Counted from the first letter of the stretch, positions 9,852-25,169 are shown. The stretch is 64,000 nt of DNA from Geitlerinema sp. PCC 9228 (GCF_001870905.1 NZ_LNDC01000095.1:1-64000), one strand, 5' to 3'. Numbers and translations are program-made. Notes: generated by a model from the letters alone, not told the origin.

Positions 9852-10347
9852 AGATAGAACCTATAGAACGGAAAATCAAAGTCTGGTGAAGCAATCGCTA
9901 TCAACCCCCCATTTTGGGGATGGTTACGGTCAGTTTGATTGAAAAGCGATCGCTTGTCCACCAGTAAATTGTTAACTTTTGCAACAAAAGGGTGGCACCG
10001 GGCAAAAACTATGCTATTTTAGGATTATAGACACCAAGGATATATGAAAAAAGCGAAAACCATTGTTGGCTTTAGACAAGGTGTCGTCGGTCTAAGAGCC
10101 AGTCGCTGTCTGAAGTATTCCTAGGTAATTGAACCTGGGATGCTAGCCAGAAAAGCTGACAGCGATCGCTGTAAACCCTCGTTGTATTTCTCTACTGTAA
10201 ATTCCATTTTCGGATTTAGCAACGTTTCCATTTTTGGTTTCACAAATAAATAACATCCGTAAAAGCCTAGCTGCCCCGACGGCTAGGCTTGCGTGTGAGA
10301 AGCGATCGCTGGATAATACAAAAAACTTTCACACCAACCATGCAATC
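9852..10347. other. Intergenic region upstream of the Dnd-type cassette
   Basis: The first part should hold the promoter of the minus-strand SDR gene. Around 10044 there is a 25-codon frame (ATGAAAAAAGCG, with AAGGA 5-9 bases upstream) ending at TAG; it matches nothing I know. A hairpin lies at 10263-10290. A TTG-initiated extension of the helicase would begin at 10234, but it would be translated through that hairpin and the added residues look non-conserved. No structured RNA could be named with confidence. Confidence 0.4.
10263..10290 (+). repeat. 9-bp stem hairpin in the helicase leader
   Basis: AAGCCTAGC (10263-10271) pairs exactly with GCTAGGCTT (10282-10290) around a 10-base loop. It lies about 60 bases upstream of the preferred helicase ATG. 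No T-tract follows, so it is more likely a leader structure, attenuator or protein site than a simple terminator. Confidence 0.5.
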
Positions 10348-11742
10348 ATGTCTGGCAACTACTTGGCTTGGGCAACCCCAGGAACCCCACAGATGCCTGC
10401 TTCGCTACAGTTGCGATGGTATCAAGAACAAGCCGTAGCCAATTGGTTTGCCAACCAAGGCAGAGGCACCTTAAAAATGGCCACCGGCAGTGGCAAAACC
10501 ATCACCAGCTTAGCGATCGCTACCCAACTATACCGCAAAATTGGCTTGCAAGCACTCATCGTTCTTTGCCCCTACCGCCACCTCGTCTCCCAATGGGCAA
10601 GGGAAACCGCCAAATTTGGTTTGCGACCCATATTAGCCTTTGAAAGCACCGCCAGCTGGCAACACCAACTATCCACCCAAGTATACAACCTGCGTCGGGG
10701 CAACCAACCTTTCCTCACCGTCATTACCACCAACGCCAGTTTCATCAGAACTGAATTTCAGTCGCTGCTGCGTTATTTTCCCGAAAAAACCTTACTCGTA
10801 GGCGACGAAGCCCATCATTTAGGGGCACCCAAACTCGAAGCCGCCTTGCCGAGAAATCTTGGCTTACGCCTCGCCCTCAGTGCCACCCCAGAACGACATT
10901 TTGACCAGGTGGGTACCCAAACTTTATTAGATTACTTCGGCAAAGTCTTGCAGCCCGAGCTTACCTTAGGCGATGCCATTCGTCAAGGGGCCCTGGCACG
11001 CTACACCTACCATCCCATTTTCATCGAACTCACCGAATCGGAAACCCTGGCTTACGCCAAACTATCGCGACGCATTGGTTGGGCATTGCAAGAAGACGAC
11101 GACTGGGAAAACAACGAAACCCTCACCGTCTTGCTAACCAAAAGAGCCAGATTGGTGGGGGCAGCCGCCAACAAACTCGCTGCCTTGCGAAATTTAATGA
11201 AAACACGCCTGCATACTTCCCATACCCTCTTTTACTGCGGTGATGGTAGCAAAGCCAGCCAGACGCCTTCTGCTGCCACCCGCAACCAACTCCAAAGTGT
11301 CACCAAACTGCTGGGATTGGAATTGGGATATCGCGTGAACACCTATACCGCCGAAACGCCGATTGCCGAAAGGGAAAACCTGCGAAAGCAATTTGAACGC
11401 GGTGAGTTGCAGGGATTGGTTGCCATGCGGTGTTTGGATGAGGGAGTGGATATTCCTGCCATTCAGACCGCCGTCATTTTGGCAAGCAGCAGCAATCCTC
11501 GACAGTTTATCCAGCGACGGGGCAGGATTTTACGCCCTTTTCCAGGTAAAGAGCGAGCTACCTTATTCGACACCATTGTGGTACCACCGGAGTTAGACCG
11601 CGATACTTGGGAGGTGGAACGCAATTTGCTAAAAAAAGAATTAAAAAGATTTATTGAGTTTGCCGATTTGGCTGATAATGCCGGCGAAGCTAGAATCACG
11701 CTGCTACAATTGCAAGAAAAATATGGACTTTTGGATATGTAG
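10348..11742 (+). CDS. DEAD/DEAH superfamily 2 helicase, Dnd-associated restriction type
   Basis: This 464-residue superfamily 2 ATPase has Walker A ATGSGKT at residues 45-51, DEAH at 153-156, SAT at 178-180, and motif VI as QFIQRRGRILRP. It resembles the cyanobacterial proteins named DNA phosphorothioation system restriction enzyme, and a DndD gene lies 0.45 kb downstream. In such systems the helicase acts on DNA lacking the sulfur mark; that role here is inferred. I chose the ATG at 10348. A TTG 38 codons upstream would also be in frame, but it precedes a strong hairpin and adds a low-quality N-terminus. No nuclease domain is obvious, so another subunit or a hidden domain may do the cutting. 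Confidence 0.8.
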   Translation: MSGNYLAWATPGTPQMPASLQLRWYQEQAVANWFANQGRGTLKMATGSGKTITSLAIATQLYRKIGLQALIVLCPYRHLVSQWARETAKFGLRPILAFESTASWQHQLSTQVYNLRRGNQPFLTVITTNASFIRTEFQSLLRYFPEKTLLVGDEAHHLGAPKLEAALPRNLGLRLALSATPERHFDQVGTQTLLDYFGKVLQPELTLGDAIRQGALARYTYHPIFIELTESETLAYAKLSRRIGWALQEDDDWENNETLTVLLTKRARLVGAAANKLAALRNLMKTRLHTSHTLFYCGDGSKASQTPSAATRNQLQSVTKLLGLELGYRVNTYTAETPIAERENLRKQFERGELQGLVAMRCLDEGVDIPAIQTAVILASSSNPRQFIQRRGRILRPFPGKERATLFDTIVVPPELDRDTWEVERNLLKKELKRFIEFADLADNAGEARITLLQLQEKYGLLDM

Positions 11743-11944
11743 CATTATCTGACAAAAAAATAGAGGAAATTTAGAAAAAAAAGTTTATATGGTAGCGCGA
11801 TCGCTAAATTCTACCAGGCAATTTCTCCAAATTGAAGAAACTCTGTAAAATTTTTCCAAAATTCTCCAACGGTAGCTACCATCACAACAGCGACCCAGCG
11901 TACAATAGTATCTATGGCAAAAACAATCGACTGTCAAGCTCGTC

Positions 11945-11950
11945 GGGAGG
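11945..11950 (+). promoter_or_regulatory. Ribosome-binding site deciding a TTG start
   Basis: GGGAGG sits 9 bases before the TTG at 11960. An in-frame TAA lies at 11951-11953 and no ATG is available, so this site argues for the TTG start of the small Dnd-associated protein. Confidence 0.6.
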
Positions 11951-11959
11951 TAAATAGGT

Positions 11960-12196
11960 TTGCGATACTTATCAGGGGCTGTCAAAGCCATATCAACAGC
12001 ATTGGCTGAAAAACGAGCTTCCTACGAAGGCAAGCTAAAACTGGAGGATGTGGAAGAGCCAGTTAACGAAGCATCTCCAGAAGTGCGGGAAATCATTATG
12101 CAGGTTCTGCAGTTGGAAAAAGACAAACTCTACATGAAAACCCCGCGTTTTATTAACGAGGATATTCTCAAAATTGTTAAGGATGTGGTGCAATGA
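11960..12196 (+). CDS. Small protein associated with a DNA-modification (Dnd-type) system
   Basis: This 78-residue charged protein is predicted mostly helical. It has no membrane segment and no metal-binding or nuclease motif. It resembles the short proteins annotated as DNA modification system-associated small protein beside DndD in cyanobacteria. Its stop overlaps the DndD start as ATGA, so the two are almost certainly co-translated. The TTG start is supported by GGGAGG at 11945-11950 and an in-frame stop directly upstream. A 217-nt gap separates it from the helicase. It may be an adaptor or regulator for DndD, but this is inference. Confidence 0.7.
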   Translation: MRYLSGAVKAISTALAEKRASYEGKLKLEDVEEPVNEASPEVREIIMQVLQLEKDKLYMKTPRFINEDILKIVKDVVQ

Positions 12197-14259
12197 AGCT
12201 CGTTTCCATTCAGCTGTGTAATTTTCGTCAGTTCTACGGCAAAACACCTCCCATTTATTTTGCCGTTTCACCCCATCAAAATACAACCATTTTACATGGA
12301 AACAATGGGGCTGGAAAAACCACATTGCTCAATGCATTTACTTGGGTTTTGTACGAAAAATTAAGCGGTGATTTGGAGTTTCCCGACCAATTGGTCAACA
12401 AACGTGCCCTTGCGGAAGGAAAGCCTAGGAAACCAATTGAATGTTGGGTGGCTTTAGAATTCGAACACGATAGCAATCGCTACCAAGCCAAACGGGCATT
12501 TCGAGCTTATAAAAATCCCCAAAGCGATCGTCCAGAAGTGGGAAAAAGCGATCTATTCTTACAAGTAGCGGGCGACGATGGCAAATGGTTAATTCCTACC
12601 CAGCATCCAGAAGACATTTTAGGGCGAATTTTGCCCAGCAGTTTGGTTCCCTATTTCTTTTTCAATGGCGAGCGAATTGAGAAAATTGTTCGCTACGATA
12701 ACAAAAGCGAAATGGCAGAAGCCACCAAGACTTTGTTAGGCATTGAAGTGGTCAACCGTTCCATTCGTCATTTGTTTGAAGTCAAGAAATTATTGGAAAA
12801 CGAACTGGTAGCGATTGGCGATACCCAGACCAAAACCTTGCTAGAAGAGAAAAAGCGATTAGAAACGGAAAAGGAGGAACTTTCCCAGCGGCAAAACGAA
12901 GTTATTCAGGAGTTGGAACATCAAGAAGAAATTAGAAAAACCATTAGCGATCGCTTGTTACAATTAAGTGGTTCGGAAGAATTGCAGCAACTACGACAGC
13001 AACTAGAAACCCAGAAAAAAGAACTGCAAAAACAACTCAGCAACGCCTACGACCAACTCAAAAAAACCATCGCCACCCAAGGCTACGCCGTCTTTCTTTC
13101 CGATAGTATCCAAGAATTTCGCCAACTGATCGAACGTTTGCGGAAAAAAGGAGAACTTCCCACCGGCATCAAACAGCAATTTGTCAAAGATTTATTGCAG
13201 CAAAGTCGTTGTATTTGTGGCAAAGACTTGGATAGCGACAACGAAGCCAGACAGCAAGTAGAATCCTGGATGGATCGTGCCGGTTCTGCCGATATTGAAG
13301 AATCAATTATTCGGATTCGTGCTAAAATCGAGGATATTGACAATTTAGTGCCGGTATTTTGGAATACCGTCGATCGCTTGCAGGGAGATATTCACGATTA
13401 CCGGGAAAAAATCTCCCATTTAGAAACCGAACTGGATACCATTAGCGAAAAATTGCGGGAATATCCCGTAGAAGCCGTACAAAATTTACAGAAACGCCTC
13501 GACGATACCAACAACAAAATTCGCGAGTTAACTTTAGAACAAGGTTCCAACACCCAGCAACTCGAACATTTAACGGAACAATTGGTAACTTTGGAACGGG
13601 ATATTGCCAAACACAAAAGCAAAGAAGTCAAACAAGCTTTAACGCAACGCCGCATTGCTTCTACCCAGGAAGCGGCGGATAGAATGCAGCAAATGCGAAA
13701 CCGTCTGGATACCAATTTTCGCTGGCAATTACAGCAGCGAGTGCAGGAATTATTTTCCCAAATTTCGTTTACGCCTTATATTCCCAAAATTAGCGAAAAA
13801 TACGAACTTACCTTGGTAGAAAATACTGCCGGTAGCGAGGCAACGGTTGCTGCTTCCACAGGAGAACATCAAATTTTATCGCTGGCATTTATTGGAGCAA
13901 TTATTGACCGAGTGCGAGATTGGAGTCGCCGCAATACCATTATGGCTCCCGATAGTAGCACATTTCCGATTGTTATGGATTCGCCGTTTGGCAGTTTGGA
14001 TGAGGTTTACCGACGGCAAATTGCCAAAACCCTGCCGACGCTAGCCAATCAATTGGTGATTTTGGTAACCAAAACCCAGTGGCGGGGAGAGGTGGCTGCG
14101 GAAATTCATCCCTATCTGGGCAAGCAATATGTTTTGGTGTACAATTCTCCTAAGTCTGATTGCGAACAAGATTGGATTGAAGTGAATGGCGATCGCTATC
14201 CGTTGGTCAGAGAAAGTCATAATGGGTTTGAGTATACGGAGATTTTAGAAGTGGATTGA
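12193..14259 (+). CDS. dndD: DNA sulfur modification protein DndD (SMC/Rad50-like ATPase)
   Basis: This 688-residue ATPase resembles the DndD subunit of DNA phosphorothioation systems, where it is thought to nick or structure DNA for sulfur insertion. Walker A GNNGAGKT is at residues 36-43. Two coiled-coil arms (about 195-300 and 370-500) flank a hook region with C340 and C342 (RCICGKDL). The ABC-type signature region STGEHQILSLA lies near 555 and Walker B FPIVMDSPFGSLDE at 591-604. The length and N-terminus (IQLCNFRQFYGK) fit the family. It overlaps the upstream small gene by 4 bases. No dndA, dndB, dndC or dndE is present in the window, so this is an orphan or split locus. Confidence 0.88.
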   Translation: MKLVSIQLCNFRQFYGKTPPIYFAVSPHQNTTILHGNNGAGKTTLLNAFTWVLYEKLSGDLEFPDQLVNKRALAEGKPRKPIECWVALEFEHDSNRYQAKRAFRAYKNPQSDRPEVGKSDLFLQVAGDDGKWLIPTQHPEDILGRILPSSLVPYFFFNGERIEKIVRYDNKSEMAEATKTLLGIEVVNRSIRHLFEVKKLLENELVAIGDTQTKTLLEEKKRLETEKEELSQRQNEVIQELEHQEEIRKTISDRLLQLSGSEELQQLRQQLETQKKELQKQLSNAYDQLKKTIATQGYAVFLSDSIQEFRQLIERLRKKGELPTGIKQQFVKDLLQQSRCICGKDLDSDNEARQQVESWMDRAGSADIEESIIRIRAKIEDIDNLVPVFWNTVDRLQGDIHDYREKISHLETELDTISEKLREYPVEAVQNLQKRLDDTNNKIRELTLEQGSNTQQLEHLTEQLVTLERDIAKHKSKEVKQALTQRRIASTQEAADRMQQMRNRLDTNFRWQLQQRVQELFSQISFTPYIPKISEKYELTLVENTAGSEATVAASTGEHQILSLAFIGAIIDRVRDWSRRNTIMAPDSSTFPIVMDSPFGSLDEVYRRQIAKTLPTLANQLVILVTKTQWRGEVAAEIHPYLGKQYVLVYNSPKSDCEQDWIEVNGDRYPLVRESHNGFEYTEILEVD

Positions 14260-14545: not shown

Positions 14546-14601
14546 AGCTATTGCGAACCATTATCGTTGCTCGAATCTGAAAGATGTTACGAAAATAGCT
14601 A

Positions 14602-14626
14602 GTAGGGTGGGCATTGCCCACCCTAC
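14602..14626. repeat. Perfect palindrome, 11-bp stem and 3-nt loop
   Basis: GTAGGGTGGGC, ATT, then GCCCACCCTAC. A second perfect copy is at 14792-14816 and a degenerate one at 14982-15006. The GTAGGG start is shared with hairpins at 56674 and 60393. Short palindromes of this kind are dispersed in many cyanobacterial genomes. Here it follows each P450 stop codon and could act as a 3' end structure. Confidence 0.85.
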
Positions 14627-14635
14627 CAAATTTGT

Positions 14636-14773
14636 TTATCCAACTACCTGAAGGCGGAAATGAGGAGAAGGCACAAAAGTAATGCCGCGACGAACCGGTT
14701 GAATCGAGCGATCGCTTGCCAATTTCAATCGATGGTTTGCTAGAATTGTAGCCAAAATCAACTTCATTTCCAT
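14636..14773 (-). pseudogene. P450 C-terminal fragment, tandem copy 1
   Basis: This copy corresponds to residues 421-465 of the adjacent P450 (from MEMKL to LQVVG and TAA). It begins at what is an internal Met of the parent and lacks the heme-binding cysteine, so it cannot encode a working enzyme. The frame is still open. No ribosome-binding site is evident upstream. Confidence 0.85.
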
Positions 14774-14825
14774 TGTCGAAAGAGAATTAGAGTAGGGTGG
14801 GCATTGCCCACCCTACCAAATTTGT

Positions 14826-14963
14826 TTATCCAATCACCTGAAGGCGGAAATGAGGAGAAGGCACAAAAGTAATGCCGCGACGAACCGGTTGAATCGAGCG
14901 ATCGCTTGCCAATTTTCATCGATGGTTTGCTAAAATTGTAGCCCAAACCAACTTCATTTCCAT
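14826..14963 (-). pseudogene. P450 C-terminal fragment, tandem copy 2
   Basis: This second copy of the last 45 P450 codons is interrupted by an in-frame TGA after the residues ANHR, where the parent reads TTG. It shows that the extra copies are not under protein-level selection. Confidence 0.85.
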
Positions 14964-15015
14964 TGTCGAAAGAGAATTAGAGTAGGGTGTGCCCTGCCCA
15001 CCCTACCAAATTTGT

Positions 15016-16413
15016 TTATCCAACTACCTGAAGGCGGAAATGAGGAGAAGGCACAAAAGTAATACCGCGACGAACCGGTTGAATCGAGCGATCGCTTGCC
15101 AATTTCAATCGATGGTTTGCTAGAATTGTAGCCAGAACCAACTTCATTTCCATTGTCGAAAGAGCTGCCCCAATACAACCGTGACTGCCGCGACCAAAAG
15201 GAAAATATTCGTAGGCAGAAATCTTATTTTCCAAAAAACGTTCCGGCAAAAATTTCTCGGGATGGGAATAGGTTTGTTGGCGGCGATGGGCTAAATAAAT
15301 ACAAGGAACGAGAACCGTTTCTGGCGGTATTTCGTATTTATCCAATTGTACCGTTTCTTTGACCCAACGGGGTTGAGAAATTAAAGCAATGGGATACAAA
15401 CGCAGGGTTTCCTTCACCACCGCATCCAGATAGGAAAGCTGGCAAATATCTGTTGGATGGGGATTTTTCCCCAAACCGTCAATTTCCTGTTGCAGTTGTT
15501 CCCAAACTCGCTTATCCTGATGAATGCAATACAACGCCCACGCTAAAGCCGACGCTGTGGTATCGTGACCGAGAAATAGCAACGTGAGCAATTGGTCTCG
15601 CAACCAGCGATCGCTTTTAGAATAGCCATCTTCATCCGTTACCGATAGTAGCAGCGAAAGCACATCTTGGCAATCGGCACTCCCCTGCCGCCGACGCTGC
15701 CGAATCTCCGCATAAATTAAATCGTCAATTTCCCGTTGCTGCTGCAAAAAATTTCCCCACGGACTCCAACTGCCCAAATCCCGCTGTAAAATTGGAAAAA
15801 AGAACTGGATGGAATACAGGGAAGAATTCACCCGATCCAAAAACGGTTCCACCAGAGAATTGAGCTTTTCGTGGCGAAATCCTGTTTTTACCCCAAAAAT
15901 GACCTGAAGAATTACTTCCAAAGCAATTTGGGACATTTCTGGGCGGACAGAAAGAACTTTTCCGGGCGACCACGATTGGGTAATTTGACGGGTAATTTCT
16001 ACAATCGCTTCCCCCCAGACTTGCAAACTTTCCCCATGCAGGGGTGGCATCAACAGCTTGCGAGTTTCTGTATGTTCGTTGCCATCCTGCATTACCAGAG
16101 ATTGGCTACCCACCAGGGGTTGGAAAGGGTGGGTAACCTTGCCGAAAGCCATTTTATCCGCAAATGTCGTACAAATGGCTTGAATGTATTTGGGATGGCT
16201 GCAAAAAATAACGGGGGGCGATTTGACTCCCAGAACCCGCAACGTAAAAATATCGCCGTACCGATGGGCACAAGCATCGAGAAAGCCCATGGGCTGGGAA
16301 ATAATTTTATAGGTTTGCCACCAAGAAGAAGCCGTATGACTGGGAGGGCGTTTGCTATTTTTCCAGGTGGGAGAATTAAGTCTTTTCGGTTGCACGAGCG
16401 ATCGCATAATCAC
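15016..16413 (-). CDS. Cytochrome P450, CYP110-like
   Basis: This 465-residue heme-thiolate monooxygenase has the I-helix oxygen-activation motif GHDTT at 282-286, ExxR at E335-R338 (KETLR), and the heme loop FGRGSHGCIG with C413 as axial ligand. It resembles cyanobacterial CYP110 enzymes, which oxidise fatty acids, alkanes or terpenoids in different strains. The start is GTG at 16413 (ATG at 16407 is equally possible). It overlaps the end of the SRPBCC gene by about 35 bases, so coupling with that gene and crtQ is likely. Its 3' end is the source of the 190-bp tandem copies. The substrate is unknown; the operon hints at a carotenoid or isoprenoid. Confidence 0.92.
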   Translation of the reverse strand: MIMRSLVQPKRLNSPTWKNSKRPPSHTASSWWQTYKIISQPMGFLDACAHRYGDIFTLRVLGVKSPPVIFCSHPKYIQAICTTFADKMAFGKVTHPFQPLVGSQSLVMQDGNEHTETRKLLMPPLHGESLQVWGEAIVEITRQITQSWSPGKVLSVRPEMSQIALEVILQVIFGVKTGFRHEKLNSLVEPFLDRVNSSLYSIQFFFPILQRDLGSWSPWGNFLQQQREIDDLIYAEIRQRRRQGSADCQDVLSLLLSVTDEDGYSKSDRWLRDQLLTLLFLGHDTTASALAWALYCIHQDKRVWEQLQQEIDGLGKNPHPTDICQLSYLDAVVKETLRLYPIALISQPRWVKETVQLDKYEIPPETVLVPCIYLAHRRQQTYSHPEKFLPERFLENKISAYEYFPFGRGSHGCIGAALSTMEMKLVLATILANHRLKLASDRSIQPVRRGITFVPSPHFRLQVVG

Positions 16414-18705: not shown

Positions 18706-19185
18706 TTACCTCTCTCCTGTGGTTTCTAAAAACTCGGCAAATTGCAAAAGTTCTGTCTGACACTGGCGATAGGTTTGGGAAAGACCATCAACTAGGGGAG
18801 AAATTTGTTTGGCTTCCAGACGAAACGTGTATATATTTCTGACCACATGGCGAAACCCGCGATAGTTGTCTAATGCTTTTAACAGGGAATCCCCAATAAC
18901 TGCCGGTCTAACCCCAGGAACTTCCGCAGCCACTTGCCAAAGGAGTTCCCGATGCCAACGAACGCCGCTAGGTTTGTATTCATCAATAACTTCGACAATG
19001 GTTTCTAAAATACGCTCTATTCCAGTATAAAAACTATGCAAATTGAGAGCAACGCCATCCAAAAAGCGATCGTCTTGAGAAGTGGTATATTGTTGCCAAA
19101 TATCCTGACATCTTTCTACGAGTGTTTCCAGGTCTTTGATATCGCGACGAATTCGACCAGCCAGCGTCAGATAGCGACCGTTCAT
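18706..19185 (-). CDS. HepT-like HEPN-domain ribonuclease toxin
   Basis: This 159-residue all-helical protein is the likely toxin of a MntA/HepT pair. The HEPN catalytic region appears as RGFRHVVRNIYTF around residues 110-125. The pattern RHVVRNIY resembles the HepT-like_2 group, rather than the classical Rx4-6H motif, because Asn takes the place of the usual His. HepT toxins cleave RNA and are silenced by AMP groups transferred by the partner MntA. The start overlaps the end of the antitoxin gene (ATGA), so translation is coupled. A housekeeping role is possible but less likely. Confidence 0.82.
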   Translation of the reverse strand: MNGRYLTLAGRIRRDIKDLETLVERCQDIWQQYTTSQDDRFLDGVALNLHSFYTGIERILETIVEVIDEYKPSGVRWHRELLWQVAAEVPGVRPAVIGDSLLKALDNYRGFRHVVRNIYTFRLEAKQISPLVDGLSQTYRQCQTELLQFAEFLETTGER

Positions 19186-19571
19186 AAATGACGACCTTCT
19201 GTTAAAATGACTTGCCGTAAAGATTCCCGGCAGCGTTCTAATTCGACCAAATCGATTTTAAATTCTGGGGAGAAATCCTGCAATTGAGCCACGGCAGCAA
19301 AGAATTTTTCGACTGGCAACCCTTTTGCAGCTAAATCTAGGTCGGAAGTGAGGGTAAAGCGATCGCATTCCACCGCCGAACCAAATAAAATAACCTCAAC
19401 TGCCCCATAGTCTCTTTTCAAAAATTCAGCCGCTTTTCGAGCAATTTCTTGCCCCCGTTGCCAGCGTTCTTGTTTGCGAGCAATATCTCGTTGTTTTCGT
19501 TTTTGAGCTGTTAAAATATAAGATTCCATATTAGAAGAATTTGGCGATGGGCAATTGTTTTTACTATCCAT
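19182..19571 (-). CDS. MntA-like nucleotidyltransferase antitoxin
   Basis: This 129-residue minimal nucleotidyltransferase has the motif starting GSAVEC and ending SDLDLA (residues about 68-86), carrying the two metal-binding aspartates; it has one residue more than the usual GSx10DxD spacing. The N-terminal 45 residues form a basic helix-rich extension. MntA enzymes transfer AMP onto a tyrosine of HepT and so neutralise it. The ATG lies 2 bases beyond the Uma2 stop; a second in-frame Met at codon 15 (19529) is an alternative. The 4-base overlap with HepT confirms the pair. Confidence 0.85.
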   Translation of the reverse strand: MDSKNNCPSPNSSNMESYILTAQKRKQRDIARKQERWQRGQEIARKAAEFLKRDYGAVEVILFGSAVECDRFTLTSDLDLAAKGLPVEKFFAAVAQLQDFSPEFKIDLVELERCRESLRQVILTEGRHL

Positions 19572-19573
19572 AT

Positions 19574-20212
19574 TTAGGCTTCCGGTTCCACACCCAAATC
19601 TCTTAACTGAGCTGCTAGTCGTTCGGCACGCTGGTATTCTCGTTCGGCACGTTGATATAATTCTACAGAAGACAGAAATTTCTTGCCGTCGGGGCGATAA
19701 ATTTCTAAAGTTTCCGATTTTAGATCGAATTGAATCCCCAATCTAGGGCTAGCCCAAGTGCCGATTTCTTTAATAAAAGACATACCTTCTGTATCTCTCT
19801 GGAAACCCGCTAGTGTGTTTTCATCGGGAGAGTAGATATAATATTCTTTCACACGATAGCGATTATAAAAGTTAAGCTTACTCATCATTGTTTGGGTGCC
19901 ATTTTCAGGAGAAGGAATTTCAAAAACCACTTGAGGGGGAATATTATCCTCTTCCCACTGGCGGTAAGAACCGCGATCGCCTTTCGGTCGATCGAAGACT
20001 ACCATAACATCGGGAGATGTACAAATTTCCGGATGCCCCTCTACTGGATACCACAATAAATTCCTGGCTACAAAAACTTGGGGGTTATCAGAAAACAGAA
20101 TTTCTAGATTTTCCTTAATAAAGGTAATCCAGCGAAACTCCCGGGTATTTTCTGCCAGGGATTTACCGTTGCTATTGGGATACGTAATTGGGCGATTTTC
20201 AGATGTGCTCAT
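19574..20212 (-). CDS. Uma2 family protein (DUF820), copy 1
   Basis: This 212-residue protein belongs to the Uma2 family, a PD-(D/E)xK-like fold greatly expanded in cyanobacteria and of unproven function. Candidate active-site residues are in SPDVMVVFDRPKGDRGSY and QVVFEIPSP, followed by KLNFYNRYRVKEYYIYSPDE. The C-terminus is a charged helix with QRAE repeats ending GVEPEA. I chose the ATG at 20212, which has AGGAGA at ideal spacing, instead of an upstream start adding 23 residues. It is a close paralog of the next gene upstream and is followed after 2 bases by MntA. Confidence 0.85.
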   Translation of the reverse strand: MSTSENRPITYPNSNGKSLAENTREFRWITFIKENLEILFSDNPQVFVARNLLWYPVEGHPEICTSPDVMVVFDRPKGDRGSYRQWEEDNIPPQVVFEIPSPENGTQTMMSKLNFYNRYRVKEYYIYSPDENTLAGFQRDTEGMSFIKEIGTWASPRLGIQFDLKSETLEIYRPDGKKFLSSVELYQRAEREYQRAERLAAQLRDLGVEPEA

Positions 20213-20218
20213 CAATTT

Positions 20219-20224
20219 TCTCCT
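20219..20224 (-). promoter_or_regulatory. Ribosome-binding site for Uma2 copy 1
   Basis: AGGAGA on the minus strand lies 6 bases before the ATG at 20212 and decides that start over the longer upstream frame. Confidence 0.7.
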
Positions 20225-20318
20225 GTATTTCGTTTTATGGATAAAAGTTATTTTTTGCCAATACCATGCTGCTTGCAGCACTGGGTTTTACTCGTTATCT
20301 ATGTCATTTTACAGTAAT

Positions 20319-20981
20319 TTAAGGTTCTGGTTCCACGCCCAAAGCTCTTAACTGAGCTGCCATTCGTTCGGCACGTTGGGATTCCTGTTCGGCACGTTGG
20401 GATTCCTGTTCGGCACGCTGATATAATTCTACAGAAGACAGAAATTTCTTGCCATCGGGGCGATAAATTTCTAAAGTTTCCGAGGTTAAAACAAATTTAA
20501 TTTTTAATCTAGGACTAACCCAATGGTTCATTGTCTCGATAGGATTTAAGTTGCCATTAATTTGTCTTCGGAATCCACTTAATTCGTTTTTATCGGGGTC
20601 GTAACTATAATATTCTTCCACGCCATAGTACTCGTAAAAGTGAAATTTGCGAGTCATCTCTTGAACGCGATTGCCAGGAGAAAGAATTTCAAAAACCACT
20701 TGAGGGGGAATATTATCTTCTTCCCACTGGCGGTAAGAACCGCGATCGCCTTTGGGTCTACCAAATACCACCATAGCATCGGGAGCTACTCGAATTTCGG
20801 GGTGCCCTTCTACTGGATACCAAAGCAAATCCCCCGCCACAAACACTTGTGGGTCATTAGCAAACAGAATTTCTAGATTTTCCTTAACCAAAGTAATCCA
20901 GCGAAACTGCCGGGTATTGTCTGCGGTGGGTTGACCGTCGCTTTCGGGATAAATGATATGGCGATTTGCAGATACGCTCAT
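20319..20981 (-). CDS. Uma2 family protein (DUF820), copy 2
   Basis: This 220-residue paralog of copy 1 has the same landmarks: APDAMVVFGRPKGDRGSY, QVVFEILSPGNR, FYEYYGVEEYYSYDPD. Long stretches are identical between the two, so the duplication is recent. Its C-terminal helix has one more 7-residue QRAEQES unit than copy 1, showing length variation by heptad gain. The ATG at 20981 has AGGGGG upstream; the in-frame start 16 codons further up is less likely. It leads a same-strand run of Uma2, Uma2, MntA, HepT. Confidence 0.85.
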   Translation of the reverse strand: MSVSANRHIIYPESDGQPTADNTRQFRWITLVKENLEILFANDPQVFVAGDLLWYPVEGHPEIRVAPDAMVVFGRPKGDRGSYRQWEEDNIPPQVVFEILSPGNRVQEMTRKFHFYEYYGVEEYYSYDPDKNELSGFRRQINGNLNPIETMNHWVSPRLKIKFVLTSETLEIYRPDGKKFLSSVELYQRAEQESQRAEQESQRAERMAAQLRALGVEPEP

Positions 20982-21122
20982 AATCCCCCTGTTGAAATTA
21001 GAAACTCCTATTTCTAGTTTAATCCCCAATTTGGTCTGTAGAAGATGGGAAAGAGGAGAGGAAAGCGGGAATTTTCGGAAAAATGGTCTTCTAGAATTGG
21101 CAGGTTCCCACTTCCTATGGTT

Positions 21123-24100
21123 TTACCCTTGTTTTGCCGCTGCAGTTTGGATAAATTTTTCGTATTCTGGATAAAACCATTCTGGCAAGCGATCGCGAGC
21201 GTTGGCTACACGCATTTTTTCCGCAGGCAGGTATAACATAGCTGCCATGAGAGCATTGATGGCTTGGGATTGCTTCAAACCTCGACCTTGACGTATCAAT
21301 TCTTGCAAGCGTTCGTTTTCGGAGGCGGTGAGGGATTCTTTTTGGAAACCACTGTGTAGGAGGCTGCGATAGGCTTCTCCGGCTGCTTCTTGATAGACCT
21401 GGGAAAGTTGCTGGGAAGGAACTTTCAGCCAAAAATCGGTGAGTTGCTGGCGTAGCGATCGCAGTTCGTTGGCAATGGCAGTTTCGCTAGGATCGATTTG
21501 ATATAAATTGACGCAACCAATGACCCGATTGGCAAAGTTCCTGGGAAGGGATTTTGATTCGGTTTCGGCAGAAATAGGCGATGGTTCTGTTGCTGGCGAT
21601 GGAAGCGTTTCTTCGGTCGCTTCAGATTGCCAGTTGTAGACCAATTGTTTAAATAGGGGAGCGATTTTTTCGGCGTAGGCACGCGGGTTGAGAAATGGCG
21701 GGGTTTGTTGCATTTTTTGCCAAATGCGATCGCGATATTGCTGGCGTTTTTGCGGATTGTTTGCCAAATCCACTGCCAATTGAATATAGCTATTTTCGCT
21801 AGTAGCAATTAACTCCGGAATTTCCAACTCTCGCAACATGGCTGATGCTTGCCTGGCTCGTAAAGAATTTCCCTGTAAAACAATCGTTGGAATTGAAACT
21901 TCTAGGGGATCGACTGTAGAGTTGGCTCCTGAATATGGATAGGAGTCAAGGTAGATATCAACCAGTTGCAAAGATTTTTTCACATCCGTACGACTAGGCA
22001 AAGCTTTTAGCACCAGTAAACGTTCTTTCGCTACACCATATTTTTCTAAAGTAGCTTGCATTTGGTTGAGAAAAGATGTAGCTGGGTAGGAATTGCTCCA
22101 ACTAGGAGCAAATGGATACAAAAGCAATTTAGAATTGGGCACAGAAGCCAGAATTTTTGCCCAGGTTTCTCGCACTTCGGGAATAATTTTGTAAAAGTTG
22201 GCACCAGAAGCAAAAATAATGGATTGTTCGTCAATTCCCCAACTTTGACGGCTTGCTTGAACCGTGGGTTTCGGAGGTTGCGTTGCGTAGTAACTGAAGC
22301 AAAACCCCGCTCCTTCTAGCAGGAGGAGTTTCTCGTTGTATTGCTCTTGGGGATTGTCTGGTTTCTCGGCTAGTTTTCCAGATATATAATAATCAATATT
22401 TCGCATTCCTGTAGTAACGGGAGAAGAAAAACCAGTAATTTGTACTCTTGCCAAACGATGCAATGCCAACCATGCAATTGTATGGGAAATTGCTGTAACG
22501 TTGCTCCCAATCAATAAAATATCTAAATCGTCGTTACGAATTGTCCGAACTTTATCGTACAAACTTTCAGGAAGTTTGATAAATCGATCCGCGCGATCGC
22601 GACAATAGTTTTCTAGAGAACTGGGATTCTCTTGACAGGCATACAAAATAATTTCAAATTGGTTGCGGTCTAAATATTCAAAAACAGGTAATGTAGTAAA
22701 TGTTTCTGTTTGTGGCTGAAAATGATTATTGACAATTCCCAAACGAATTTTGCGATCGTGGGGGCGTTGGGAAAACTCAAAATCTAATTGACCCCCTTTC
22801 GCGCGCAACGCAAATTCCATCAAACTGGCTCTTTGATGGTATACCTCTTTGAGATTTAGATCGTTAAAATAAAGGGGAATCGTATTTAATTTCCTAGCAA
22901 AAGTCCAAGCAAATTGCTGCCAAAGATGGATATTTTTATTATCTCGAACTTTGGCGTTTATATACCCAACAATTCCTCGTACATATTCAAAATATTGTTC
23001 TGCTTCCCCCAGATTTTGAAACCATCCCGGTGTTTCCACCAAAAAGTCCAAAAGATTTTGCAAAAAGCATTTAGGAACTGGCAAATTTTGATACCACTTG
23101 GCAGGTAGCTGATAGGGATAGTTGTACAACATAGCAACCATCAGAAGCCGCATATCTTGCGGATTTTGCGAAAATTTGGCAAGCGACTGTTTTACAATTG
23201 ATTGTTCGGTTTCATTTTTTGGGTTATTTTTTAACCCAGTATTCAAAACTGTTTCCTTATAATGATGGGAGAACGTTTGTAGAATATTTTTATCTGGGAT
23301 TTGCTTTTTCAAGCTTAATATTTCCCGTGCAATTTGGTAGCGTTTTTTGCTTGCTTGACTCCATGAAATAGCACGATCTGATTGATGGGATTCCAGATGA
23401 TGTCTTTTTGAGGCTTCCTTGTAAATCCCCAAACTGCTAGCTACTTTGTTAGGTATCGAACAAGCAAACCAAATACTCGTTCCTTCAATTGAACCAAATT
23501 CTACAAACTCTGAATTAGAAAAAACGATTTCTTGTACAGCTTCAATAACTCCAAAATTTTTACCTTTCTGGTAGTCATGCCCGCATAAAATGCCCCCAGG
23601 CTTCAAACATTGTAGAGCAATATTGATATCTTTACGTACATTTTCATAATCGTGGGCAGCATCTATAAAAATTAAATCGAAAAATTCTTGCGGCAATAAT
23701 TCTTGAAATTGCTGGGTCGAACCACGCATGACGCGAACGCGATCGCTAAACCATTCAATATTTTTTAAGAAATCTTCAAAAACGCCATAATCGGTTTTTG
23801 GTATTTTGTAAGCAGTTGGATCGGCGTCGAGGCTGCCTCTTTCCTGAAAATTTTTCCATATATCCAGACAATATAGTTCTTTGGCAGAATTTTGCAATCC
23901 GTAACCAATGGCATTACTAGACCTACCTCGATACGAACCAACTTCTAAAATTCTACTGCGATCGGGTAAAGCCGCAACGAGCCGATATAAAGTTAAAATT
24001 TCTAATTCGCTAAACCAGCCTCCTACTCGTTCGACTTTTTCGATAACTTCAGTTTCAATATTTGTTTTGGGCGGTAATTGGTAAATATTCATTGTCTTTT

Positions 24101-25169
24101 TCTTTTTATGTTGATGCTCGTTTTCTTTATGTGAATAATTCCGATTGCTTTTTAACAATTTACGAATATTGTTTTCCACGTCTTTAGGTTGCTTTACAAA
24201 TTCGCAAAAATCCAACCCCTGGGTCCAACTATTATAAAACGCCTCGTTTTTATAGTAAGAATTTGGCAGAAATATGTGTGGTTTACTTAACAGCGTACAT
24301 AGAATATGTCCGTGAAGTCGATTGGTTAAAATCAAGCGATGTTGTAGAAACTGATATGCCCCCGCACAGAGCATCTTTAAAGACAAACGGTGCCACTCTG
24401 GTTGGCTGACGCTAGATAAACTAGTAAAAAGCTCTCTTTGCTGGAACAAATCTATTAAACGATCTTGCAGGCAACGAACCCCCTGCCGAAAAGAAATCCA
24501 ATCGTCAACTACCAAATTATCAATATTTAAATTATCGAACCCTCGATTGTTCTCTTTATCGGTTCTGCGATGGTGTAAAATTGAATTATTTTCGCGTATA
24601 TTCGATGGTAGATTCAGTAAATCAACAAGCTGAAAAGCCATATCTGGCGCTAGATAAACCTTGCACTTGTCAAAATATTTTTGAGCAAACTCATAACTAG
24701 TGCGATCGCGACAAAATAGCGTTAAATCTGGGTGACTGTTCAATATTTTTCTAGCTCTATCCAGTGCCGATTGGCTTTGAAAATAAATTGTTTGTGGAAA
24801 ACTAATAATAGGACGGTCTTGATAGCGAGCAATAATATATTCTCGGAAAGGTTGATGCCACGGCCATATATCTCCGAAGTTGCCCCCACCATGAATAAAA
24901 ATCGGCGCTTTTCCTACTTGCCCTTCCATTTCTTCATGGGAAAAATTATTGCGAGTAGCTACATATCCAATTTTTGTTTTCAAAACATCTTTAAGGTATA
25001 AAACGCCTCCCAACCAAATTAAATGGTCTCCTAAATTAAAATGTCCTGGATAATCGATAAAAGCACAATTATCCACAGAAGGTATAACTTGCAAAGCTGA
25101 ATGCAAAATCCTTTTTACTGTGCCCGAAGTGACTTTTTTGCTTTGTTCGCTTTTCATAGTATTGACCAA
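21123..25169 (-). CDS. Three-domain fusion: pyruvyltransferase-like, SAM methyltransferase, SPINDLY/GT41-like
   Basis: This is a 1348-residue multi-domain enzyme. Residues 30-340 resemble polysaccharide pyruvyltransferases (PGHFNLGDHLIWLGG, FIHGGGNFGDIW, LTNRLHGHILC, IFLPNSYYKNEAFY). Residues 375-575 are a methyltransferase (ILEVGSYRGRSS at 407, FIDAAHDYENVRKDI at 501, LKPGGILCGHDY). Residues 805-1180 match SPINDLY/O-GlcNAc transferase-like GT41 enzymes (IRLGIVNNHFQPQ at 808, GANSTVDPLE at 1081, IPTIVLQG). The modules at 675-730 and 1280-1345 are alike and may be scaffold repeats. An internal Met at 360, after an A-rich run and followed by a natural-looking N-terminus, suggests two genes fused recently. 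Protein or glycan decoration near the RTX gene is inferred. Confidence 0.85.
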   Translation of the reverse strand: MVNTMKSEQSKKVTSGTVKRILHSALQVIPSVDNCAFIDYPGHFNLGDHLIWLGGVLYLKDVLKTKIGYVATRNNFSHEEMEGQVGKAPIFIHGGGNFGDIWPWHQPFREYIIARYQDRPIISFPQTIYFQSQSALDRARKILNSHPDLTLFCRDRTSYEFAQKYFDKCKVYLAPDMAFQLVDLLNLPSNIRENNSILHHRRTDKENNRGFDNLNIDNLVVDDWISFRQGVRCLQDRLIDLFQQRELFTSLSSVSQPEWHRLSLKMLCAGAYQFLQHRLILTNRLHGHILCTLLSKPHIFLPNSYYKNEAFYNSWTQGLDFCEFVKQPKDVENNIRKLLKSNRNYSHKENEHQHKKKKTMNIYQLPPKTNIETEVIEKVERVGGWFSELEILTLYRLVAALPDRSRILEVGSYRGRSSNAIGYGLQNSAKELYCLDIWKNFQERGSLDADPTAYKIPKTDYGVFEDFLKNIEWFSDRVRVMRGSTQQFQELLPQEFFDLIFIDAAHDYENVRKDINIALQCLKPGGILCGHDYQKGKNFGVIEAVQEIVFSNSEFVEFGSIEGTSIWFACSIPNKVASSLGIYKEASKRHHLESHQSDRAISWSQASKKRYQIAREILSLKKQIPDKNILQTFSHHYKETVLNTGLKNNPKNETEQSIVKQSLAKFSQNPQDMRLLMVAMLYNYPYQLPAKWYQNLPVPKCFLQNLLDFLVETPGWFQNLGEAEQYFEYVRGIVGYINAKVRDNKNIHLWQQFAWTFARKLNTIPLYFNDLNLKEVYHQRASLMEFALRAKGGQLDFEFSQRPHDRKIRLGIVNNHFQPQTETFTTLPVFEYLDRNQFEIILYACQENPSSLENYCRDRADRFIKLPESLYDKVRTIRNDDLDILLIGSNVTAISHTIAWLALHRLARVQITGFSSPVTTGMRNIDYYISGKLAEKPDNPQEQYNEKLLLLEGAGFCFSYYATQPPKPTVQASRQSWGIDEQSIIFASGANFYKIIPEVRETWAKILASVPNSKLLLYPFAPSWSNSYPATSFLNQMQATLEKYGVAKERLLVLKALPSRTDVKKSLQLVDIYLDSYPYSGANSTVDPLEVSIPTIVLQGNSLRARQASAMLRELEIPELIATSENSYIQLAVDLANNPQKRQQYRDRIWQKMQQTPPFLNPRAYAEKIAPLFKQLVYNWQSEATEETLPSPATEPSPISAETESKSLPRNFANRVIGCVNLYQIDPSETAIANELRSLRQQLTDFWLKVPSQQLSQVYQEAAGEAYRSLLHSGFQKESLTASENERLQELIRQGRGLKQSQAINALMAAMLYLPAEKMRVANARDRLPEWFYPEYEKFIQTAAAKQG

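Follow-up and report, generated by a model that had tools for sequence, protein, structure and literature searches.

The window analysed here, a stretch of 64,000 nucleotides from Geitlerinema sp. PCC 9228 (GCF_001870905.1 NZ_LNDC01000095.1:1-64000), is part of contig C95 of a cyanobacterial genome of 223 contigs, and carries at 10348-14259 a trio of genes related to the Dnd and Pbe systems of DNA phosphorothioate (PT) modification. The trio encodes a helicase, a small protein and an ABC ATPase, all three present on the same strand in open, intact frames. An original prediction made from the sequence described it as an orphan Dnd-type cassette, in which a restriction-type helicase, a small protein and DndD stand without the sulfur-modification genes. 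Dnd modification genes were indeed not seen near the trio in the window, whereas the identity of the ATPase and the orphan status of the trio both had to be revised.

The helicase gene (10348..11742, plus strand) has an ATG start, with an alternative in-frame TTG at 10234, and encodes a superfamily 2 (SF2) protein of 464 amino acids (aa) with ResIII and Helicase_C domains. It scores 647.9 bits against TIGR04095 (DNA phosphorothioation system restriction enzyme), over the cut-off of 600 and in agreement with the restriction-type helicase originally proposed, and 543 bits against the PADLOC PbeA profile, where the alignment starts no earlier than profile position 244; the gene therefore lacks the N-terminal PLD/HKD part and encodes the helicase half of PbeA.

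The ATPase gene (12193..14259, plus strand) encodes 688 aa that match the PADLOC PbeC profile with 1030.9 bits and TIGR03185 (DndD) with 160.2 bits, under the DndD cut-off of 245.85. The identification as DndD was therefore rejected on the basis of this low score, the strong PbeC match and a CxC zinc hook that is invariant in 105 homologues, and the true DndD of the genome was found on another contig, C195 (689.1-691 bits). The CxC motif marks the CxC ABC-ATPase clade, which has been equated with PbeC and set apart from DndD (PMC10853773), and by its sequence the trio ATPase is PbeC, a CxC ABC-ATPase. No match to PbeC was found among PDB sequences.

The small gene (11960..12196, plus strand) occupies the position of pbeB, has a TTG start and encodes 78 aa, its stop sharing the bases ATGA with the pbeC start. 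This 4-base overlap recurs at most pbeC loci, in most of 80 named relatives. The protein has no match in Pfam or PADLOC, and is nevertheless a real conserved family, with 11 invariant columns among 20 aligned homologues; its predicted structure contains helices only, at low confidence (predicted local distance difference test, pLDDT, 67.7). Three Okeania loci (L068, L070 and L076) have a gap of 0.3-1.1 kb between pbeC and the small gene, where relatives have the overlap.

As originally noted, the trio retains its catalytic features. Helicase motifs I-VI and the ATPase Walker A, signature, Walker B and CxC motifs are all kept, including helicase motif I MATGSGKT (10477..10500) and motif II GDEAHH (10801..10818), and PbeC Walker A GNNGAGKT (12298..12321) and the Cys-Ile-Cys hook apex (13210..13218), all on the plus strand. 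The key residues of motif I, DExH, SAT, QRRGR, GNNGxGKT, CxC (both cysteines) and MDSPFGSLD hardly vary when 87 helicases and 105 ATPases are aligned. The window helicase differs from its relatives at 3 of 150 near-invariant positions, and no stops or frameshifts were found in the window PbeC or helicase.

Partner genes in the genome and across the order

The remaining components are present on other contigs of the same genome, which means that the trio is no orphan. Contig C195 carries dndB divergent from dndC-dndD, where dndB was assigned by position and by 55-62% identity to same-position genes in relatives, not by a family scan. DndE is encoded on contig C103 (TIGR03184, 119 bits; PF08870, 136.5 bits); a 112-aa open reading frame (ORF) following dndD on C195 was considered as DndE and rejected, as it has no family match. 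A TIGR04062 gene on contig C81 (174.6 bits, 53% identity to a relative) is taken as PbeD from its position, its size and the predicted structure of a relative: TIGR04062 proteins are mostly 152-159 aa long, the fourth Pbe protein of Archaea has 152 aa (PMC6459918), and the top four PDB matches of the predicted structure (Foldseek) are all DndE crystal structures. The genome thus spreads the set over four contigs, with the trio on C95, pbeD on C81, dndBCD on C195 and dndE on C103.

Among 386 genomes of the phylum, 105 of them from the same order as the window genome, the helicase over the TIGR04095 cut-off, DndC, PbeD and PbeC are each nearly confined to this order, and DndF over its cut-off was found in none of the 386. 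All four genes are intact in 86 of the 105 order genomes, while none of the four is present in 11 genomes, which span 6 genera. The pairs are strongly co-retained: helicase and DndC occur together in 87 order genomes and are both absent from 12 (one without the other in 2 and 4), with corresponding counts of 88 and 13 for helicase and PbeD (1 and 3), 89 and 12 for DndC and PbeD (2 and 2), and 88 and 12 for PbeC and DndC (2 and 3). Because the genomes are related, a table by genus is fairer; among 56 genera, PbeC and DndC were both lost in 7, PbeC alone in 1, DndC alone in 2 and neither in 46 (Fisher p = 1.2e-6). Broken copies also occur: one genome (G385) has a broken helicase gene adjoining a broken dndC on one contig, and another (G054) has an interrupted helicase gene with about 2.6 kb between its parts.

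Helicase and DndC patristic distances are correlated across 40 genomes (r = 0.57, with a maximum of 0.33 in 2000 permutations), as they are in a 20-genome subset consisting of the window genome and 19 genomes that were not fetched as linked clusters (r = 0.71, permutation maximum 0.36).

With genes within 20 kb counted as linked, the four genes form one cluster in 28 of the 86 genomes and lie all apart in 23, the remainder being intermediate, so that 58 of the 86 do not hold them as one cassette. This scatter is not an assembly effect, because 13 of the 23 all-apart genomes carry all four genes on one contig. In the window genome the helicase and PbeC are together, and PbeD and DndC are each unlinked. 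Linked pairs always lie on the same strand in the order helicase, PbeC, PbeD, DndC (helicase-PbeC 42/42, PbeC-PbeD 46/46, PbeD-DndC 55/55, helicase-DndC 27/27). It had been suggested that relatives be searched for the trio alone; all 20 clusters that were fetched as linked and read gene by gene hold PbeD and DndC as well as the helicase, small protein and PbeC. These clusters often have genes upstream that resemble lexA and argF, by sequence appearance only.

The PLD/HKD nuclease domain and Uma2-family genes

The nuclease part of PbeA was also sought as a separate gene. No significant PLD match was found upstream of the window helicase, and the two PLD genes of the window genome both lie away from the trio. 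By tblastn, a PLD homologue is present at only 2 of 140 loci. One (L054) belongs to a genome outside the order and encodes a PbeA of 717 aa with a PLD match; the other (L177) is a second, different copy of the system in one genome (G197), and is the only order locus examined that has PLD. These results are best read as indicating a PbeA that is without the PLD/HKD nuclease domain across the order, as judged from the sequences.

A Uma2-family gene lies close to or overlaps the pbeC stop, on the same strand, at about 30 of 97 loci from several lineages, one of them outside the order, and one such gene matches Pfam Uma2 (an example locus is L050:7551-8243). There is no Uma2 gene beside the window pbeC, and no clear orthologue of the pbeC-linked subfamily in its own genome, where the best candidate reaches 26% identity; Uma2 was therefore rejected as an obligatory part of the system in the window genome. 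At 19574-21029 the window has two tandem minus-strand genes, of which the first matches Pfam Uma2 and the second looks similar.

Function and its alternatives

The trio is probably the pbeA(helicase-only)-pbeB-like-pbeC portion of a chromosomally dispersed DndBCDE-PbeABCD PT self/non-self defence system. Among the options raised originally, this corresponds to a trio that works with modification genes elsewhere, which is supported by dndBCDE in the same genome and by the co-retention of DndC across the order. In such a system DndC, DndD and DndE, with a cysteine desulfurase, would mark the host chromosome with sulfur at a short sequence motif, under regulation by DndB. PbeC, an ABC ATPase of Rad50-like type that carries a zinc hook, and PbeD, with a putative DndE-like DNA-binding fold, may scan DNA for this motif and engage DNA without the PT mark, whereupon the PbeB-like small protein could license or couple the complex and the PbeA motor would be loaded. 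The likely outcome would be an ATP-driven obstruction of foreign DNA replication without cutting, unless a nuclease encoded elsewhere works in trans; a non-cleaving block is favoured because PbeA of the order is without the PLD/HKD nuclease. All of these functional statements are inferred, and the cyanobacterial version would be expected to behave like the archaeal system.

That system, DndCDEA-PbeABCD of Haloterrigena jeotgali (PMC6459918), shares with the present one a PbeA helicase, a small protein, an AAA/ABC ATPase, a fourth protein of about 152 aa, the pairing with dnd and the absence of DndFGH. It differs in having an N-terminal PLD on PbeA, a single cassette and no dndB, whereas the window genome has no PLD on PbeA, four contigs and dndB. 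The archaeal pair protected against virus only with the PT genes present and against a PT-less virus; pbeB, pbeC and pbeD were needed and pbeA was needed in part, and viral replication was blocked without cleavage (PMC6459918). The CxC ABC-ATPase/DndE clade-2 systems, whose components have been equated with PbeC, PbeA, PbeB and PbeD (PMC10853773), likewise combine a CxC ABC ATPase, an SF2 helicase, a small protein and a DndE-like partner, but in the window genome the pair is not linked and there is no DNase domain; most PbeABCD/CxC members by far, though not all, have a PLD/HKD nuclease fused to PbeA. DndBCDE-DndFGH systems are alike in the modification half and differ in the restriction half; no genome of the phylum sample has DndF over its cut-off. 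The helicase and PbeD exceed the curated cut-offs of NCBIfam TIGR04095 and TIGR04062 ("dnd system-associated protein 4"), names that give no mechanism.

Several observations weigh against this interpretation. Of all aligned order members the window PbeC has the most changes at near-invariant positions (9 of 165), and its genome is the only one of its family in the sample. The small protein is called PbeB-like by position alone, its size and conservation being consistent with PbeB. The structural match of PbeD to DndE is statistically weak (best Foldseek E 0.15, prob 0.95), and an hhalign profile-profile comparison of the two found nothing. Three genomes that lack an intact DndC still carry Pbe genes (G051, helicase only; G070, helicase, PbeC and a partial PbeD; G159, PbeC, PbeD and a broken helicase), and two others (G080, G211) carry DndC without any of the three Pbe genes. 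The helicase and DndC trees have just 11 of 37 splits in common, so that of dndBCE elsewhere with matching phylogeny, as envisaged originally, the presence was found and the matching phylogeny in part. The history of helicase and DndC fits one that is largely shared, with exceptions, and does not amount to proof of strict vertical descent.

A bolder form of the proposal, in which an order-wide, near-core, scattered and nuclease-less Pbe complex reads PT and controls replication without cleavage, perhaps serving housekeeping no less than defence, is rather unlikely. A takeover of the nuclease-less Pbe for housekeeping, in which PbeC, PbeD and the helicase would read PT marks as a complex of Rad50/SMC-like type for DNA maintenance or the control of replication, with antiviral defence secondary or lost, seems improbable. 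It would agree with the near-core presence in the order (86/105) and near-absence outside it in the sample, with the scatter in 58 of 86 genomes, and with a PLD domain at just one examined order locus, a second-system copy. The joint loss of all four genes in 11 genomes of 6 genera speaks against it, because components lost jointly in several genera indicate a system that is dispensable together with PT, and so does the conserved gene order of the clusters, which corresponds to a PT-coupled Pbe cassette.

It is quite improbable that the same system still cleaves DNA by means of a nuclease in trans, for example a Uma2-family "putative restriction endonuclease". The pbeC-coupled genes at about 30 of 97 loci in several lineages, one outside the order, and the Pfam Uma2 match of one of them would suit such a role, but the window pbeC has no such neighbour and its own genome offers only a 26%-identical candidate. 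Uma2 genes are moreover very numerous in cyanobacteria, which also counts against this explanation. A true orphan that acts without any DNA mark is hardly credible, since the window genome carries dndB, dndC, dndD, dndE and PbeD and the Pbe genes are strongly co-retained with DndC, even if G051, G070 and G159 retain part of the Pbe set while lacking an intact DndC; a reduced module that works without DNA marking is not supported.

The dispersed DndBCDE-PbeABCD reading bears on earlier conclusions about PT in Cyanobacteria. Jian et al. (PMC8569181) found dnd enriched in Nostocales and DndFGH absent, concluded that PT restriction is absent in Cyanobacteria and inferred an original antioxidant role for dnd; only DndFGH was searched, and Pbe is unmentioned. 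Almost all DndC-bearing genomes of the order also carry the PbeA helicase, PbeC and PbeD, so there is a partner module after all, and the inference has to be tested again. Xiong et al. (PMC6459918) termed Pbe "solitary" where no dndCD lies within 10 kb, which applied to 320 of 553 pbeAC. Half or more of the order genomes hold both sets, yet not within 20 kb, and a neighbourhood-based definition of "solitary" can therefore mislead. A naturally PLD-less PbeA is also relevant to the dispute between DNA cutting, argued to be carried out by the fused DNase (PMC10853773), and a replication block only (PMC6459918). What is apparently new is that the system is near-core, that it is dispersed and that its PbeA has no nuclease; cyanobacteria as a group are unnamed in the main texts of PMC10853773 and PMC6459918, whose supplements may hold a prior description.

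Other features of the window

The trio is flanked upstream by an NAD(P)-binding gene on the opposite strand and downstream by a DUF167 gene. A 190-base unit is present at 14601-15170 in three tandem copies that are 94-100% alike, the last of which overlaps the 3' end of a cytochrome P450-like gene (15016-16413, minus strand). At 18706-19571 a nucleotidyltransferase (Polbeta) gene adjoins a HepT-like gene, likely forming an MNT-HEPN toxin-antitoxin pair. Finally, a 1348-aa ORF at 21123-25169 joins polysaccharide pyruvyl transferase, methyltransferase and glycosyltransferase family 41 domains.
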